From Streptosporangiaceae bacterium (GTDB lineage Bacteria; Actinomycetota; Actinomycetes; Streptosporangiales; Streptosporangiaceae): 6,731 nucleotides of DNA. Below are positions 2-5,207 of the stretch, piece after piece. The stretch spans positions 1 through 6,731 of the forward strand of contig JASHYW010000268.1 in the NCBI GenBank assembly GCA_030042885.1, written 5' to 3'. Within the stretch, counting starts at the first letter, position 1; each line of letters begins with the position of its first letter. A program made the position numbers and the translations under genes. The notes under the pieces are model-generated. The model saw nothing but the letters and a program-made list of their open reading frames with translations, was not told where the DNA came from and ran no database searches.

Positions 2-736
<735 letters not shown>

Positions 737-1094: not shown

Positions 1095-2534
1095 ATGGAT
1101 TCATGGCGCCGTGCGGATGTTCCCGTGCTCCCGGGCAGCGGCCCGGCGCCCCGGCTGCACGACACGGCCACCGGTGCCCTGGTCCTGGCCTCGGCGGGCC
1201 CGGTCGCCACGCTATACGCCTGCGGCATCACCCCCTACGACGCGACGCACATCGGGCACGCCGCCACCTTCACTGCCTGGGACCTGCTGGTCCGCGCCTG
1301 GCTGGACGCCTCCCCGGAGGCGCCGGAAGCACCGGGGACGCCGGAGGATTCCGCGCCGCCGTCCCGGTTCACCGTGATCTACGTACAGAACGTGACCGAC
1401 GTCGACGATCCCATGCTGGAACGGGCCGCGCGGGACGGCGAGGACTGGCGCGAGCTGGCCCGCCGCGAGATACAGCAGTACCGGTCCGACATGGAGGCGC
1501 TGCGCATCCTGCCGCCCACCCACCTGGTCGGGGCGGTTGAGGCACTGCCCGTCATCGAGCGGTTCACCGCCCGGATGGCGGACCGCGGCGCCCTGTATGA
1601 CGTGGACACCGATCTTTACTTCGCCAAGTCCTCCGACCCGGCCTTCGGCGCGCTGTCCGGGCCTGGCACGCCCTCGGGGTTCGACCCCGGGCGGATGGCC
1701 GAGCTCGCCGCCGAGCGCGGCGGCGACCCGGGCCGGCCGGGGAAGAAGGACCCGCTGGATGTCCTGGTCTGGCGCGCGCAACGGCCCGGCGAGCCGGCTT
1801 GGGACTCGCGGTTCGGCCGCGGCAGGCCGGGCTGGCACGTCGAGTGCGCCGCCATCGCCACCGAGTACCTGGGCACCTCCTTCGACGTCCAGGCGGGCGG
1901 GACCGACCTGGTGTTCCCGCATCACGAGCTGAGCGCGTCGCACGCCCGGGTCGCGTTCTCGGGCGGCCCCCTCGGGGGGCCCCAGAAGGGTACGGGGGGG
2001 TTGGCACCCCCCCGTGATCAGGGGGGCTCTGGGGGGGGTCGTCCCCCCCGAGACAGCACCGTCTTCGCGCGGGTGTACGTGCACGCCGGGATGGTCAGCT
2101 ACCACGGCCAGAAGATGTCCAAGTCGCTCGGCAACCTGGTGTTCGTCAGCGCGCTGCTGGCCGGCGGCGCGGACCCGATGGCGGTCCGGATGGCGCTGCT
2201 GGCGCACCACTACCGTTCCGACTGGGAGTGGACCGACCAGGTGCTGGCCGAGGGCGACGCGCGGCTCGCTCGCTGGCGCGCCGCGCTGGGCCACGCCGCG
2301 GCGGCGACCTCGGCTGCGCCCGGCACCGCCCCGGCCGATGCGGCCCTCGAGGTCCTGGCCGGAGTCCGCGCGCGCATGCGCGACGACCTGGATACCCCGG
2401 GTGCGCTGGTCGTCGTCGATCGCTGGGCCGACCGGCTGCGGGCCGAGGCGCCGACCCGGATCGCCCCGGCTGACGTGGCTGGGGCCCGGCTGGTCAGGGA
2501 CACCGTAGACGCCCTGCTTGGCATCCGCCTGTGA
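1095..2534 (+). CDS. mshC: L-cysteine:1D-myo-inositol 2-amino-2-deoxy-alpha-D-glucopyranoside ligase (MshC), with insertions
   Basis: MshC joins cysteine to GlcN-Ins using ATP, the penultimate step of mycothiol synthesis in the cytosol. It evolved from class I cysteinyl-tRNA synthetase. The family opening DSWRRADVP-LPG is followed by YACGITPYDATHIGHA (41-56), containing a zinc-ligand Cys43 and the HIGH motif (52-55). Further marks are YVQNVTDVDDP (96-106), RPGKKDPLDVLVW (214-226), GRPGWHVEC with Cys251 (243-251), FPHHE with His276 (274-278) and KMSKS (340-344). All expected catalytic and zinc-binding positions are present. The start is ATG 1095; the upstream GTG at 1050 would add 15 non-family residues and lacks an SD at good spacing. 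The protein is 479 residues against roughly 410-420 usually. The excess lies at residues about 73-91 (Pro/Glu repeat), 289-321 (G/C palindrome insertion) and an Ala-rich stretch near 400-415. The frame is unbroken, so it is probably functional. Confidence 0.96.
   Translation: MDSWRRADVPVLPGSGPAPRLHDTATGALVLASAGPVATLYACGITPYDATHIGHAATFTAWDLLVRAWLDASPEAPEAPGTPEDSAPPSRFTVIYVQNVTDVDDPMLERAARDGEDWRELARREIQQYRSDMEALRILPPTHLVGAVEALPVIERFTARMADRGALYDVDTDLYFAKSSDPAFGALSGPGTPSGFDPGRMAELAAERGGDPGRPGKKDPLDVLVWRAQRPGEPAWDSRFGRGRPGWHVECAAIATEYLGTSFDVQAGGTDLVFPHHELSASHARVAFSGGPLGGPQKGTGGLAPPRDQGGSGGGRPPRDSTVFARVYVHAGMVSYHGQKMSKSLGNLVFVSALLAGGADPMAVRMALLAHHYRSDWEWTDQVLAEGDARLARWRAALGHAAAATSAAPGTAPADAALEVLAGVRARMRDDLDTPGALVVVDRWADRLRAEAPTRIAPADVAGARLVRDTVDALLGIRL
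1314..1349 (+). repeat. Four 9-bp tandem repeats inside mshC (PEA-type)
   Basis: Units CCGGAGGCG, CCGGAAGCA, CCGGGGACG and CCGGAGGAT run head to tail and in frame, encoding PEA-PEA-PGT-PED (residues 74-85). They form most of an insertion of about 20 residues between the helix after the HIGH motif and the conserved YVQNVTDVDD strand. MshC and CysRS relatives have a short turn there. The position suggests a surface loop that tolerates expansion. Confidence 0.75.
1961..2055. repeat. G/C-homopolymer palindromic element inserted in frame in mshC (contains copy B)
   Basis: Three stem-loops follow one another. The first is GGCCCCC/GGGGGCC (1965-1971 with 1975-1981). The second is the perfect 9-bp pair ACGGGGGGG/CCCCCCCGT (1992-2000 with 2007-2015, six-base loop). 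The third is G7/C7 around TCGT (2032-2038 with 2043-2049). Runs of six to eight G or C occur six times. The segment encodes a Gly/Pro-rich linker (residues about 289-321) between the HHELSASHA helix and the FARVYVHAGM segment; MshC relatives have only a few residues there. Base composition and homopolymers differ sharply from the rest of the gene. The third stem, read on the minus strand, shares GGGGGGACGAC-Y-CCCC and a following C6 run with 741-767. Confidence 0.8.
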
Positions 2535-2603: not shown

Positions 2604-3377
2604 CTACCTGCTGCATTCCTGGCTGGACGAAGCCTGCTGACGCTGGCCCGCCTGAAGGCGGGAAGCGGCGACGGCGCGGATCGCCGAGTCCACGATGTCG
2701 TCGAGCTTGGTCCCGTGCGCCCCGTGCCAGTACACCCGCCCGCAGGCCGCGCAGCGCGAGAAGGCCTGGTAGGTGCGCCTGGTGCCGGGTAGCAGCAGCG
2801 GTTCGACATCGGCCTTGCGGACCGCCGCCAGCAGCCCGTTGCACGCGGTGCACCTGGTCCAGGGCGCCAGCGGCGGCGCGAACCGGTCCAGGACGTCGCG
2901 TAGCTGGTCATCGGGCCGTGCGCCGCGCACGTAGGCGCCCAGCCACAGCCTGCGGCGGCGCAGCAAGCCGCGGTCCTGGGTCAGCAGCACCCGCCGGCCC
3001 GCGTTGGCCCGCTCGATCAGGCTGTCATCGTCAAGGTCATTGGCGTAGGCGGCATCGACGCCCACCAGCCGCAGCCGCCGGGCCAGCGTGCCCAGGTGAA
3101 CATCCAGGATGAACCGCGCCGACGGCAGCGGCTGGGGCCGGCGGACCGCGCCAACCTCGGCCACGTCACCGGCGGCGAGCCGGTACCCGGCCGTCACCGG
3201 CGCGCCGCTGACCACCAGGCTGCCGACCTCGGGCAGCGGCACGCCCAGCGACTCCACCACGTGACCTAGCGACGATATCCCGTCGCAGGCCACCCGCACC
3301 TGCCCGCCCCGCTGCCGCGGCGCCAGGAAGAACCGCAGCTCGGCTGCGAACCGCACCTCCGCATCCGGTCTGGCCAC
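2604..3377 (-). CDS. Mut7-C RNase domain protein with N-terminal ubiquitin-like domain
   Basis: This is a predicted cytosolic RNase of the PIN-like Mut7-C family with a ubiquitin-fold N-terminus; its physiological RNA target is not known. From the chosen start it is 257 residues. A beta-grasp segment (AELRFFLAPRQRG at 11-23, continuing to about 80) ends in a RPQPLP linker. The Mut7-C domain starts at FILDVHLGTLARRLRL (89-104), whose Asp92 is the expected catalytic acid, followed by the acidic NDLDDDSL (113-120) and LLTQDRGLL (131-139, Asp135). A zinc ribbon follows with CTAC (176-179) and CAAC (209-212), then the family motif GRVYWHGAH. The start is GTG at 3377, chosen because homologues begin about 10 residues before ELRFFL; AGAGGG directly abuts it, which is poor spacing. 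ATG at 3434 (19 more residues) is the main alternative. Further upstream the frame looks non-coding. The last dozen or so residues, after the RAVAASRL helix, are a non-conserved Gln/Ser-rich tail. Confidence 0.92.
   Translation of the reverse strand: MARPDAEVRFAAELRFFLAPRQRGGQVRVACDGISSLGHVVESLGVPLPEVGSLVVSGAPVTAGYRLAAGDVAEVGAVRRPQPLPSARFILDVHLGTLARRLRLVGVDAAYANDLDDDSLIERANAGRRVLLTQDRGLLRRRRLWLGAYVRGARPDDQLRDVLDRFAPPLAPWTRCTACNGLLAAVRKADVEPLLLPGTRRTYQAFSRCAACGRVYWHGAHGTKLDDIVDSAIRAVAASRLQAGQRQQASSSQECSR
2647..2662. terminator. Stem-loop in the 3' end of the Mut7-C gene; possible transcription-end structure for mshC
   Basis: CCCGCCT (2647-2653) and AGGCGGG (2656-2662) form a perfect inverted repeat, in practice a 6-bp stem with loop TGAA. 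It lies 113 bases past the mshC stop and within the last codons of the opposing gene, in its poorly conserved Gln/Ser-rich tail. There is no T-tract on either side, so a terminator role is only a suggestion. Confidence 0.25.
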
Positions 3378-3591
3378 CCCTCTAGCATCCCCGCTGGCGC
3401 GGGCCTGTCCACGTGGGCCTGCCGACGAGGCCATGGGCTTCTGGCGGGTTGCGGCAGGCGTGCCCGCGCCAGATACTGAAAACCACTCCCGCGGCTGAAG
3501 CAGCCGGTTGAGCCGCATCGGCCCCAGGCGATGCCCGCCGCCGCGGGAGCGCGGCAATCGTGGGTTAGATTCGCGAGCGCTGGAGGGGGCG
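3378..3591. promoter_or_regulatory. Divergent upstream region between the Mut7-C gene and the kinase fragment
   Basis: This 214-base region must carry promoters for both directions. For the plus strand, TAGATT at 3566-3571 fits the TAnnnT actinobacterial -10 pattern and lies 21 bases before the kinase start, but no -35 box is clear. For the minus strand, the only AT-rich patch is 3470-3486 (AGATACTGAAAACCACT on the plus strand), which could hold a -10 element. A small stem CGGCTG/CAGCCG (3492-3497 with 3501-3506) is present. No tRNA or other RNA gene was seen. Confidence 0.35.
3582..3589 (+). promoter_or_regulatory. Strong ribosome binding site for the kinase fragment
   Basis: GGAGGGGG lies with its GGAGG core five bases before the GTG at 3592. 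It is one of the two best Shine-Dalgarno sequences in the window. It fixes the start of the kinase fragment and shows that the 5' end of that gene is preserved even though the rest is lost. Confidence 0.75.
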
Positions 3592-3864
3592 GTGAGCGAG
3601 GAGACCCGGGCGGCACCCGCCGTTCTCGTGCCCGGCTCGAGCATAGCTGGCTATGTGCTGGAAGAGCAGATCGGCCAGGGCGGGATGGCCGTGGTGTTCC
3701 GCGCACGTGAGGAAGGGCTGGATGCCGGGCTCACCCGCGCCGTGACGACCGGCTCGGTCGCTGCGGGCATCGCAGGGCAGCCGCCTGCCAGGGCGGCAAG
3801 CCACTGGTTGTCAAGCAACTCCGCCGGCCTGTGGATAACGCCGCGAGTTATCCACAGACGGTAA
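3592..3864 (+). pseudogene. Serine/threonine protein kinase, N-terminal fragment only (truncated)
   Basis: The first about 45 residues match the start of an actinobacterial Hanks-type kinase. After a short leader come PGSSIAGYVLEEQIG and the glycine-rich ATP loop GQGGMAVVFRARE (28-40). Intact kinases then continue with a few residues and the VALK lysine. Here the similarity stops after LDA (43-45), at about base 3726, and is replaced by 45 unrelated residues running to TAA at 3862-3864. There is no VAIK lysine, HRD, DFG or membrane segment, so it cannot be an active kinase. The tail is read through the DnaA-box palindrome, as expected for non-coding DNA that happens to be open. Promoter and RBS seem kept, so a 90-residue peptide may still be made. 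The most likely history is deletion of the kinase body; no transposase remnant is seen at the junction. Confidence 0.8.
3829..3857. promoter_or_regulatory. Inverted pair of perfect DnaA-box sequences (TTATCCACA)
   Basis: CTGTGGATAAC (3829-3839) and GTTATCCACAG (3847-3857) are perfect 11-bp inverted repeats with a 7-base spacer, GCCGCGA. Each arm contains TTATCCACA, the consensus DnaA box (minus strand 3830-3838, plus strand 3848-3856). The site lies 51 bases before the DUF4192 start codon, in the unconserved tail of the broken kinase. Its AT content stands out from the surroundings. It could bind DnaA and control the DUF4192 gene or titrate DnaA, or be a cruciform bound by another regulator. 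Two boxes alone do not make an origin, and no dnaA, dnaN or parA genes are nearby. Confidence 0.7.
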
Positions 3865-3908
3865 TTCAGGCCTGGCTGACCGTATCGACCGGGCCGCACG
3901 CTGGCGGA

Positions 3909-5207
3909 ATGAGACACGTCCTGACAGCGGGTGGCGACCATCCGCAGCAACCCCGGACCTCCCGCACTCCCCGGACCTCCAGCACTCCCCGGACCTCCAG
4001 CACTCCCCGGACCTCCCGCACTCCCCGGACCTCCAGCACTCCGCGGACCTCCCGCGGCCCGCGCACCTCCCAGGCTCCGGAGCCCAGCCTCGTCGTCCGG
4101 GCTGGCTCGCCCGCGGCCCTGCTCGCGGTCGTGCCGCACCTGCTTGGTTTCGTGCCCGAGGCGAGCCTGGTGGTGATCGGGACCGGGCCGCCTCGCGACC
4201 GCATCCGGGTCACGCTCCGATACGACCTGCCTGATCCGCCCGGTGCGGGCATTGCCGCCGACCTCGCCGCAGACGCGCTCGCCATCCTCGGCGCGCAGCG
4301 GCTGCCCGCGGCGGTGGCAGTCGGCTACGGTCCTGAGGCGCTGGTCACCCCGGTGGCCGAGGCGCTGCGGGAGGCGGCGGGCATCGCCGGGATCGCACTG
4401 CATGACGTCATGCGGGTCGAGAACGGCCGCTACTGGTCGTACCTGTGCGGCAACGAGGCGTGCTGCCCGGCCGCGGGCGTGCCGTTCGACGCGAGCGCTC
4501 ACCCCGCCTCGGCCGCCATGGCCAGCGCAGGGAAACAGGTGCTGGCCGACCGGGCCGCCGTGGCCGCCCGCGTCGCGCCGCTCGGCGGCATCGCCGCCGA
4601 ATCCATGCGGCAGGCCACCCGCCGGGCGGAGCGGCACGTCGCCCAGCTGCTCGCCAAGGTCGGCAAGTCCTCCCGGATCGGCGCCGCGCGGCGCATGATC
4701 GCCGCCGAGGGCCTGGCCGCGGTCGGCGCCATGATCGCCAGGTACCGCGGCGGCGGCCGGTTCACCACGGACTACGAGATCGCGCGGATCACGGTGGCGC
4801 TGCGCGACCTGAGGGTCAGGGATGACGCCTGGGCGCGGATGGATCCCGCGCACGCGGAGGCGCATCAGCGGCTGTGGATCGACGTGGCCCGGCGCGCGCA
4901 GCCCGGGCACGCGGCCGCGCCGGCCGCGCTGCTGGCCTTCGTGGCCTGGCAGACCGGCGACGGGGCGCTGGCCAATGTGGCGCTCGACCGGGCCCTGGCC
5001 GATGATCCCAGGTACTCGATGGCCCTGCTGCTCCGGCAGGTGATCGGCGCGGGCGCGCCGCCCGCGCTGGCCCGGCTGCCGATGACGCCCGAGGAGGTGG
5101 CCGCCAGTTACGACGGCGCCGAGGACGAGGCCTTCCCCGGTGGCGAGGACGACGACCACGACCTGGACATCGACGACCACGACCCGGACCTGGACGACGA
5201 AGGCTGA
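3909..5207 (+). CDS. DUF4192 domain-containing protein
   Basis: This belongs to an actinobacterial family of unknown function. From ATG 3909 it has 432 residues. Residues 17-57 are a low-complexity PRTS(R/S)T repeat. The DUF4192 domain begins at about 66 with SPAALLAVVPHLLGFVPEASLVVIG in place of the family's DLLAAVPYLLGFHPERSLVVVG-type opening. It continues through RYWSYLCGNEACCPAAGVPF (174-193; Cys180, Cys185, Cys186) and the ending LLAFVAWQTGDGALANVALD (341-360), then RALADDPRYS. Beyond about 404 an acidic Asp-rich tail follows. The domain is predicted cytosolic, with no signal peptide or membrane segment. The start choice matters: GTG 3831 is in frame but sits inside the DnaA-box palindrome, and the next usable start lies inside the domain, so ATG 3909 is the best option. 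Its SD is weak (GGCGGA abutting the ATG), so leaderless or weak initiation is possible. A terminator-like hairpin follows the stop. Confidence 0.93.
   Translation: MRHVLTAGGDHPQQPRTSRTPRTSSTPRTSSTPRTSRTPRTSSTPRTSRGPRTSQAPEPSLVVRAGSPAALLAVVPHLLGFVPEASLVVIGTGPPRDRIRVTLRYDLPDPPGAGIAADLAADALAILGAQRLPAAVAVGYGPEALVTPVAEALREAAGIAGIALHDVMRVENGRYWSYLCGNEACCPAAGVPFDASAHPASAAMASAGKQVLADRAAVAARVAPLGGIAAESMRQATRRAERHVAQLLAKVGKSSRIGAARRMIAAEGLAAVGAMIARYRGGGRFTTDYEIARITVALRDLRVRDDAWARMDPAHAEAHQRLWIDVARRAQPGHAAAPAALLAFVAWQTGDGALANVALDRALADDPRYSMALLLRQVIGAGAPPALARLPMTPEEVAASYDGAEDEAFPGGEDDDHDLDIDDHDPDLDDEG
3951..4076 (+). repeat. 18-bp minisatellite, seven units, in frame at the DUF4192 N-terminus
   Basis: Units CCCCGGACCTCCMGCACT run at 3951-3968, 3969-3986, 3987-4004, 4005-4022 and 4023-4040. 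The first five differ only at one base (C or A), which switches Arg to Ser. Two decayed units follow at 4041-4058 and 4059-4076. Each unit encodes six residues of the type (T/P)PRTS(R/S). Because the unit length is a multiple of three, gain or loss of units keeps the frame. The near identity of five units indicates recent expansion. Confidence 0.9.
5151..5192 (+). repeat. Two 21-bp direct repeats encoding the acidic tail of the DUF4192 protein
   Basis: GACGACCACGACCTGGACATC (5151-5171) is followed directly by a copy with a few base changes (5172-5192), then by GACGAC. They encode DDHDLDI and DDHDPDL, giving with their flanks a tail of strongly negative charge (residues about 404-432). This is another in-frame expansion at an end of the same protein. 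Confidence 0.75.

Follow-up and report, generated by a model that had tools for sequence, protein, structure and literature searches.

A palindromic DNA element dispersed among Streptosporangiaceae-type actinobacteria lies in frame within mshC and many unrelated genes

The stretch of DNA analyzed here (the window) comprises 6,731 nucleotides of a Streptosporangiaceae bacterium (contig JASHYW010000268.1) and carries an mshC open reading frame (ORF) that accommodates, without loss of frame, a palindromic insert at positions 1959-2060. The element is dispersed, resides in frame, and is patchily present: we observed related copies intergenically as well as within many genes unrelated to one another, in either orientation. 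The mshC insert is very probably a copy of a palindromic DNA element that is dispersed in Streptosporangiaceae-type actinobacteria, spreads as a non-autonomous, hairpin-mediated sequence, and is tolerated in proteins. On our best reading, it is a coding palindrome, mobile-looking and tolerated, that appears analogous to the Rickettsia palindromic elements (RPEs) and to intragenic repetitive extragenic palindromes (REPs), but in Actinobacteria.

The mshC ORF runs on the plus strand from a GTG at 1050 to 2534 (494 aa), and its single frame continues through the insert; an alternative ATG at codon 16 gives the MDSWRR start, as in relatives. The ORF was matched by TIGR03447 (MshC) with 507 bits versus a cut-off of 485, in two stretches. 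Comparison with the nearest relative, P0003, placed 34 codons (102 bp) between F303 (codon 1956-1958) and V338 (2061-2063), between the HHELSASHARVAF helix and VFARVYVHAGM. The insert translates as SGGPLGGPQKGTGGLAPPRDQGGSGGGRPPRDST, and the HHELSASHA-to-FARV spacing is 39 residues in the window MshC versus 8 in P0003. The element orientation is that of the minus strand, with the GGTGCTG edge at 2060. An earlier reading of the window from its letters (the sequence-only reading) had set the insert at 1961..2055, which was nearly exact, and had proposed that a palindromic repeat inserted here and is tolerated as a Gly/Pro-rich linker of about 30 residues, a proposal that our analysis supports.

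A structure model from 54 more widely drawn sequences (mean predicted local distance difference test score, pLDDT, 73.6) had the solved MshC structures 8hfn and 3c8z as its best matches. In the numbering of the window's own MshC, P0001 (ORF number minus 25, insert at residues 279-312), the model predicted a helix at 266-278, a coil with pLDDT below 50 at 282-308, and a strand at 315-321. The low-scoring coil between helix and strand fits a disordered, floppy loop, as had been expected; such a predicted model is no proof of either exposure or enzyme activity of the insert-bearing MshC. An earlier model from 47 close homologs was set aside as too poor (pLDDT 47.9).

Three consecutive stem-loops with G/C-run stems lie in the open frame between HHELSASHA and FARVYVHAGM, in sequence and frame just as the sequence-only reading had described. 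Hairpin A (1965-1981), read by eye, has a 7-bp stem and a 3-nt loop. Hairpin B (1992-2015; arms 1992-2001/2006-2015) has a perfect 10-bp stem, ACGGGGGGGT/ACCCCCCCGT; the inverted repeat previously given as 9 bp is thus perfect as claimed, but its length was understated. Hairpin C (2028-2053; arms 2028-2038/2043-2053) pairs at 91% of 11 bp around a TCGT loop (ACGA on the minus strand) and constitutes the conserved core, G6-TCGT-C6, the form seen most often among the hairpins listed for related genomes. Folding of 1955-2066 as RNA yielded one nested palindrome of -74.4 kcal/mol (z -2.68), and 1 of 200 shuffles folded at least as well. Four overlapping matches to G6-N3..6-C6 were found in the mshC ORF, versus a codon-shuffle mean of 0.0075, and none of 2000 shuffles reached four. 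Runs of at least six G or C numbered six versus a mean of 2.98. Because that run count was reached by 117 of the 2000 shuffles and the pairing by none, the striking feature is the hairpin pairing, not the number of runs. The density of G/C runs was 57 per kb in 1959-2063 versus 1.2 per kb elsewhere in the window.

We took the 120 best MshC homologs, P0001 being the window's own, and aligned them (121 aligned rows); a tree of 120 rows (the window plus P0002-P0120) was built without the insert-site columns. The HHELSASHA-FARV length was at least 20 residues in 38 of the tree rows and below 20 in 82, with exactly 10 residues at the site in 73 of the 121 aligned rows; many of the rows with 20 residues or more are Gly/Pro-rich. 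The relatives therefore do not uniformly have the long, plain linker that would have told against an insertion. P0003 is 92% identical to the window MshC over 440 shared columns, yet has only 8 residues at the site. The mshC insert is present in some close relatives and absent from others: of the two closest genomes compared, G197 carries a hairpin insert in mshC in the opposite orientation (L111/L194), and G196 has a short mshC loop (L114). On the tree, the long/short state changed 27 times, with at least eight changes forced by strongly supported branches.

The element extends far beyond mshC. Its core reads approximately GTGCTRGCCC - G6 - ACGA - C6 - short spacer - C6 - G, and oriented copies often have in common a 5' edge near GTGCTRGCCC, the ACGA loop, the short spacer, and a third C run. 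It often continues into a second hairpin with CTGCCC in the loop, ending near GTACCCCCCTGG, to give units of ∼40 to 120 bp. The G6-N3..6-C6 pattern was found in all 13 genomes reached via MshC loci (L001-L013), with per-strand counts, nested matches included, of up to 147 in G001 (control 15) and 124 in G003, the isolate Trebonia kvetii (control 8); the highest control count was 24, in G006, versus 45 real. A frequent form, GGGGGGACGACCCCCC, is identical to window hairpin C and makes up the core 16-mer. Within the family to which G001 (Streptosporangiaceae bacterium) belongs, 157 of 341 genomes contained this 16-mer, with the most copies in T. kvetii (40+36 = 76), and the letter-reversed control gave three matches over the same 341. 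In a class-wide sample of 394 genomes, it occurred in 28 and the control in none; 11 of the 28 belong to this family, and the remaining 17 carry 1 to 3 copies apiece.

The insert used as a query (1959-2063) matched in 7/7 genomes, with at least 27 matches in G196, 19 in G001, 11 in G197, 10 in G056, 7 in G003, 6 in G006, and 3 in G041; in three of the seven, 40 of the initial candidates were scored, and counts there are lower bounds. By blastn, the window insert matched the purH insert of G196 at 82% over 82 nt (E 1.6e-15) and G197:C494 at 83% over 81 nt (E 3.8e-16). An alignment of eight sequences, made up of the inserts of the window mshC, G196 purH, and G197 menE plus five further copies, had a mean column identity of 58%, with G196_C84 the poorest fit; letters outside the homopolymers were shared, namely CTGCCC, TCACG, GTACC, and CCCCTGG. 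When the purH protein was the query, the insert stretch alone matched other loci, the best being G197:C494 (E 8.6e-11). Separately, several T. kvetii copies (L214-L243) carry an extra conserved upstream stretch, approximately CGCCATCGTATCGGGCGC, with a complementary GCCCGATGGC near some of them. The exact 16-mer was also seen once in each of three IMG/VR viral contigs (L244, L245, and L246), in two of them near the contig end.

A second copy of the element lies in the window itself, at ∼728-848 on the plus strand, in the opposite orientation to the mshC insert. It sits at the 3' end of the upstream gene (2-736, plus strand), a putative amidase gene. The TAG stop of this gene (734-736) falls inside the second copy and is supplied by its GTGCTAGCCC edge. 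A query spanning the second copy (722-870) matched in 7/7 related genomes, the best match being 84% over 122 bp (E 5e-26, query bases 9-127); 40 candidates were scored per genome, so the counts are lower bounds. Aligned with copies from G196 (seven-copy alignment, mean column identity 49%), the second copy has a core common to all and a longer stretch in common with L162, L173, L161, and L178, the last of which sits upstream of mshC in G196. In G041, at least 53 places match this query, a longer form of the element of up to ∼120 bp, the most of any of the seven genomes searched; L253 (G041:C24) is one such locus.

Residence inside genes was scored with a codon model trained on long ORFs of the scored stretches and of other fetched loci: a copy passed if the same best frame was found on both flanks and stayed open through the element. 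In G196 and G197, we scored 40 hairpin clusters from among the listed matches, leaving out eight listed places (two in G196, six in G197), with L187 and L188, near contig ends, outside the scoring. Twenty clusters passed. Locus L179 passed with both flank scores negative and was dropped, giving 19, and the ABC-transporter-like locus L158, in-gene by eye, failed and was not counted. The 19 include two clusters that share a gene (L174; one flank score negative in each) and mshC itself (L194), which was fetched on purpose, and several of them have low flank scores. Of the 76 core copies in T. kvetii, we examined 30, and eight loci passed, some of them mutual neighbors; both flanks are clearly coding at L215 and L241, and at L241 the element lies in frame within a CoA-binding domain, with a single family model spanning it.

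Family models support the in-gene inserts independently of the codon frame test. A single model spans the insert in purH (NF002049, residues 5-540; insert 366-372), metH (TIGR02082, 1-972; insert 794-800), nuoG (NF005895, 92-879; insert 794-799), trmI (PF08704, 82-251; insert 172-178), and the shikimate kinase gene (PF01202, 20-194; insert 116-122), and also in a DUF2201_N protein (L160; PF13203, 106-394; insert 296-302) that failed the flank test. The insert of menE, gltB, and lhr falls between Pfam domains, as does that of two G001 proteins (a serine dehydratase and a biotin carboxylase); a family search of the insert-bearing ORFs at L164 and L181 gave no family.

Among 26 ORFs examined, 23 contained canonical loops, 25 loops in total, of which 11 were sense and 14 antisense. 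Sense loops were read in frame 1 (ten) or frame 0 (one), and antisense loops in frames 2, 1, and 0 (six, four, and four, respectively); five of the six combinations of orientation and frame are thus represented, one by a single loop. The peptides read are GGDDPP, RGDDPP, GGSSPR, RGVVPP, GGRPP, and similar. We reasoned that reading in both directions is hard to square with a peptide maintained for itself but is expected of a DNA element that happens to stay open, and so the coding use of the element looks opportunistic. In PurH, the same loop was 11-67 residues long in the 64 of 120 homologs parsed by a crude pattern (the 56 unparsed were dropped), and an element-like signature, by a loose pattern, was present in 52 of the 64; the purH genes of G197 and G001, among the closest, and of G013 were unparsed by the patterns and left out. 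Empty purH sites were found in G002, G006, G041, G056, and G003, where the loops diverge, so the joint cannot be placed to the base. Tandem copies were spaced by 39, 42, 48, 51, or 75 nt, all multiples of three, but also by 38, 40, or 77 nt; local duplication therefore contributes. At L225 and L226 of T. kvetii, tandem copies with a 75-nt spacing translate, within a large open frame, to a 25-residue repeat.

We propose that the element would spread as a small non-autonomous sequence, mediated by its hairpins and moving as a unit. Copies would be tolerated if they occupy an exposed loop, preserve the frame, and escape its closure by the CTAG motif (where present), because the runs would then be read as Gly/Pro-rich disordered peptide (GGDDPP, GGSSPR, RGVVPP, or GGRPP). 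The remaining copies would be purged or survive intergenically. The MshC insert is most likely a passenger loop with no function of its own.

Several observations weigh against this proposal. The codon model of the frame test is rough, and many copies failed it: 21/40 clusters in G196/G197, 12/14 rows in G001 (2/14 passed), 7/9 rows in G008/G009/G011, and 22/30 loci in T. kvetii. Because most fail, the G001 and T. kvetii copies examined lie mostly outside coding frames. The two passing rows from G008/G009/G011 (L103 and L109, MerR-like) have one flank score near or below zero and, as related genes of two genomes, are not independent entries in the frame table. On the MshC tree, 56 of 117 inner branches are weak, and the long/short trait is mildly clustered, its 27 changes comparing with a shuffled-label mean of 32.6 and 5 of 500 shuffles being as low; because losses also count as changes, the number of gains is not countable. 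Genome-wide copy numbers were obtained in related genomes, with the window's own genome outside the count; the earlier expectation of copies elsewhere in the host, in and between genes, was therefore borne out by the second window copy and by many copies in relatives rather than by a host count. The filled and empty DNA alleles of mshC and purH are too diverged to show a target duplication. Finally, Y1 transposase (PF01797) was matched in 3 of 12 genomes searched and in neither of the copy-rich drafts G196 and G001, and the six Y1 loci fetched had no hairpin in flanks of up to 1.5 kb.

This last result bears on the possibility that a RAYT (Y1) transposase mobilizes the element in trans as a REP family, an explanation that is the same as our best reading except for the named mover. 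The element is palindromic and dispersed, at gene ends with TAG stops and within genes, as reported for REPs (PMC3733652). However, inspection of the listed copies showed neither GTAG nor CGTC as a constant tag at the foot of the hairpin, the G196 and G001 drafts gave no Y1 match (drafts in which the gene may be missed), and no element lay beside the six matches elsewhere. Because no Y1 transposase with the element alongside was found in the genomes searched, a REP/RAYT system is not supported and we consider it unlikely; a mover acting from elsewhere would be compatible with these data. We also weighed a function of the hairpin in DNA or RNA, as a terminator, attenuator, mRNA stabilizer, or binding site, with the coding copies as by-products. 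The fold is very stable and gene-end copies give stop codons (window 734-736), but a terminator inside core enzymes would presumably be harmful, presence varies between proteins as close as 92% identity, an Rfam scan of the window gave no match at the gathering score, and by eye the window hairpins are not followed by the T run expected of an intrinsic terminator. This function is improbable as the cause of the pattern.

Growth of G/C runs by replication slippage at tolerant loops, the copies being alike merely as homopolymers, would account for homopolymer stems, and tandem growth does occur, as seen in tandem copies and in a PurH loop with repeated GGTHPPRPP units. Nevertheless, the ACGA loop, the GTGCTRG edge, CTGCCC, and GTACC are common to unlinked genes and genomes, blastn E values reach down to 4e-16 between different genes, and the letter-reversed control was almost empty, which makes such local expansion a shade less probable again. 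G runs are hard to sequence, and an assembly or binning artefact in metagenome contigs could be imagined; this is already contradicted by T. kvetii, recorded as a strain, whose 76 core copies include one in frame in the CoA-binding domain, and by frames open through the insert in many separate contigs, and we regard it as exceedingly improbable.

The sequence-only reading had likened the insert to the palindromic elements of Rickettsia, and the likeness holds as a way of working, with no membership claimed. According to PMC10969869 and PMC2229807, RPEs are short palindromic repeats in frame in unrelated metabolic genes as well as intergenic, at least one such enzyme being active. The present element is likewise palindromic and lies in frame within protein genes and between genes; however, it is read in both orientations and several frames, in contrast to the conserved-peptide rule of RPEs, its stems are G/C homopolymers, and its host is a high-GC actinobacterium. 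Intragenic REPs (GTAG and CGTC families; Opitutus, Thauera, R. conorii) are described in PMC3733652, where the word Actinobacteria does not occur, as single or grouped palindromes encoding 20-30 or 43-82 residues, with TAG stops supplied by the repeat. They appear similar to our element in lying within genes and in supplying a TAG stop, as the second window copy does, but the element edges vary (GTGCTAG, GTGTTGC, GTGCTGG, and others), with no constant unpaired GTAG/CGTC tag by inspection, and no linked Y1 transposase was found (12 genomes, six loci). Because the conserved peptide, the tag, and the transposase were each looked for and not found, we filed the element neither as an RPE nor as a REP. 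Miniature inverted-repeat transposable elements (MITEs) with ORFs (ERIC, Correia/NEMIS, and YPAL) are, according to PMC2229807, small non-autonomous repeats that make in-frame fusions, as the present element appears to do; their hallmark is terminal inverted repeats with a target duplication, and the empty mshC and purH alleles here differ too much for their joints to be located at base resolution. We found no such family described for Actinobacteria in the open-access literature searched. Fungal mitochondria carry double-hairpin elements, pairs of G/C hairpins that invade genes; these may be a comparable kind of repeat in another kind of genome.

Rickettsia and Wolbachia were already known to carry in-frame coding palindromes, and scattered other bacteria to carry them as intragenic REPs. 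Here such palindromes are seen in high-GC actinobacteria, within many genes of core metabolism, and close relatives differ in their presence or absence. This opens to direct test the way in which selfish DNA adds disordered loops to enzymes, the rate at which such loops turn over, and what moves them. We hold with as much doubt as confidence the broader idea that an undescribed coding-palindrome family invaded the proteomes of a soil-type actinobacterial clade, repeatedly at the same tolerant loops of core enzymes (MshC and PurH), can be read in both orientations and in almost every frame, and continues to turn over, leaving close relatives with differing disordered loops in core enzymes. For annotation, Gly/Pro-rich loops (GGDDPP, GGSSPR, and GGRPP) in these proteins can be inserted repeats, not domains.

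The window contains further features. Upstream of mshC, 916-1007 holds 4.8 copies of a 19-nt tandem unit, CCCCCCGGCATCCGCGCGG. A minus-strand ORF of 346 aa (2604-3644) has paired cysteines near its C-terminus and no NCBIfam match. An 18-nt tandem repeat of 5.7 copies (3951-4071; also a 54-nt period) lies in frame near the N-terminus of ORF 3831-5207, itself without any NCBIfam match, and translates as RTPRTSSTPRTSS. A short ORF at 3508-3864 with a VLEEQIGQGGMAVVFRARE stretch resembles, by eye, a truncated Ser/Thr protein kinase start and is probably a remnant.
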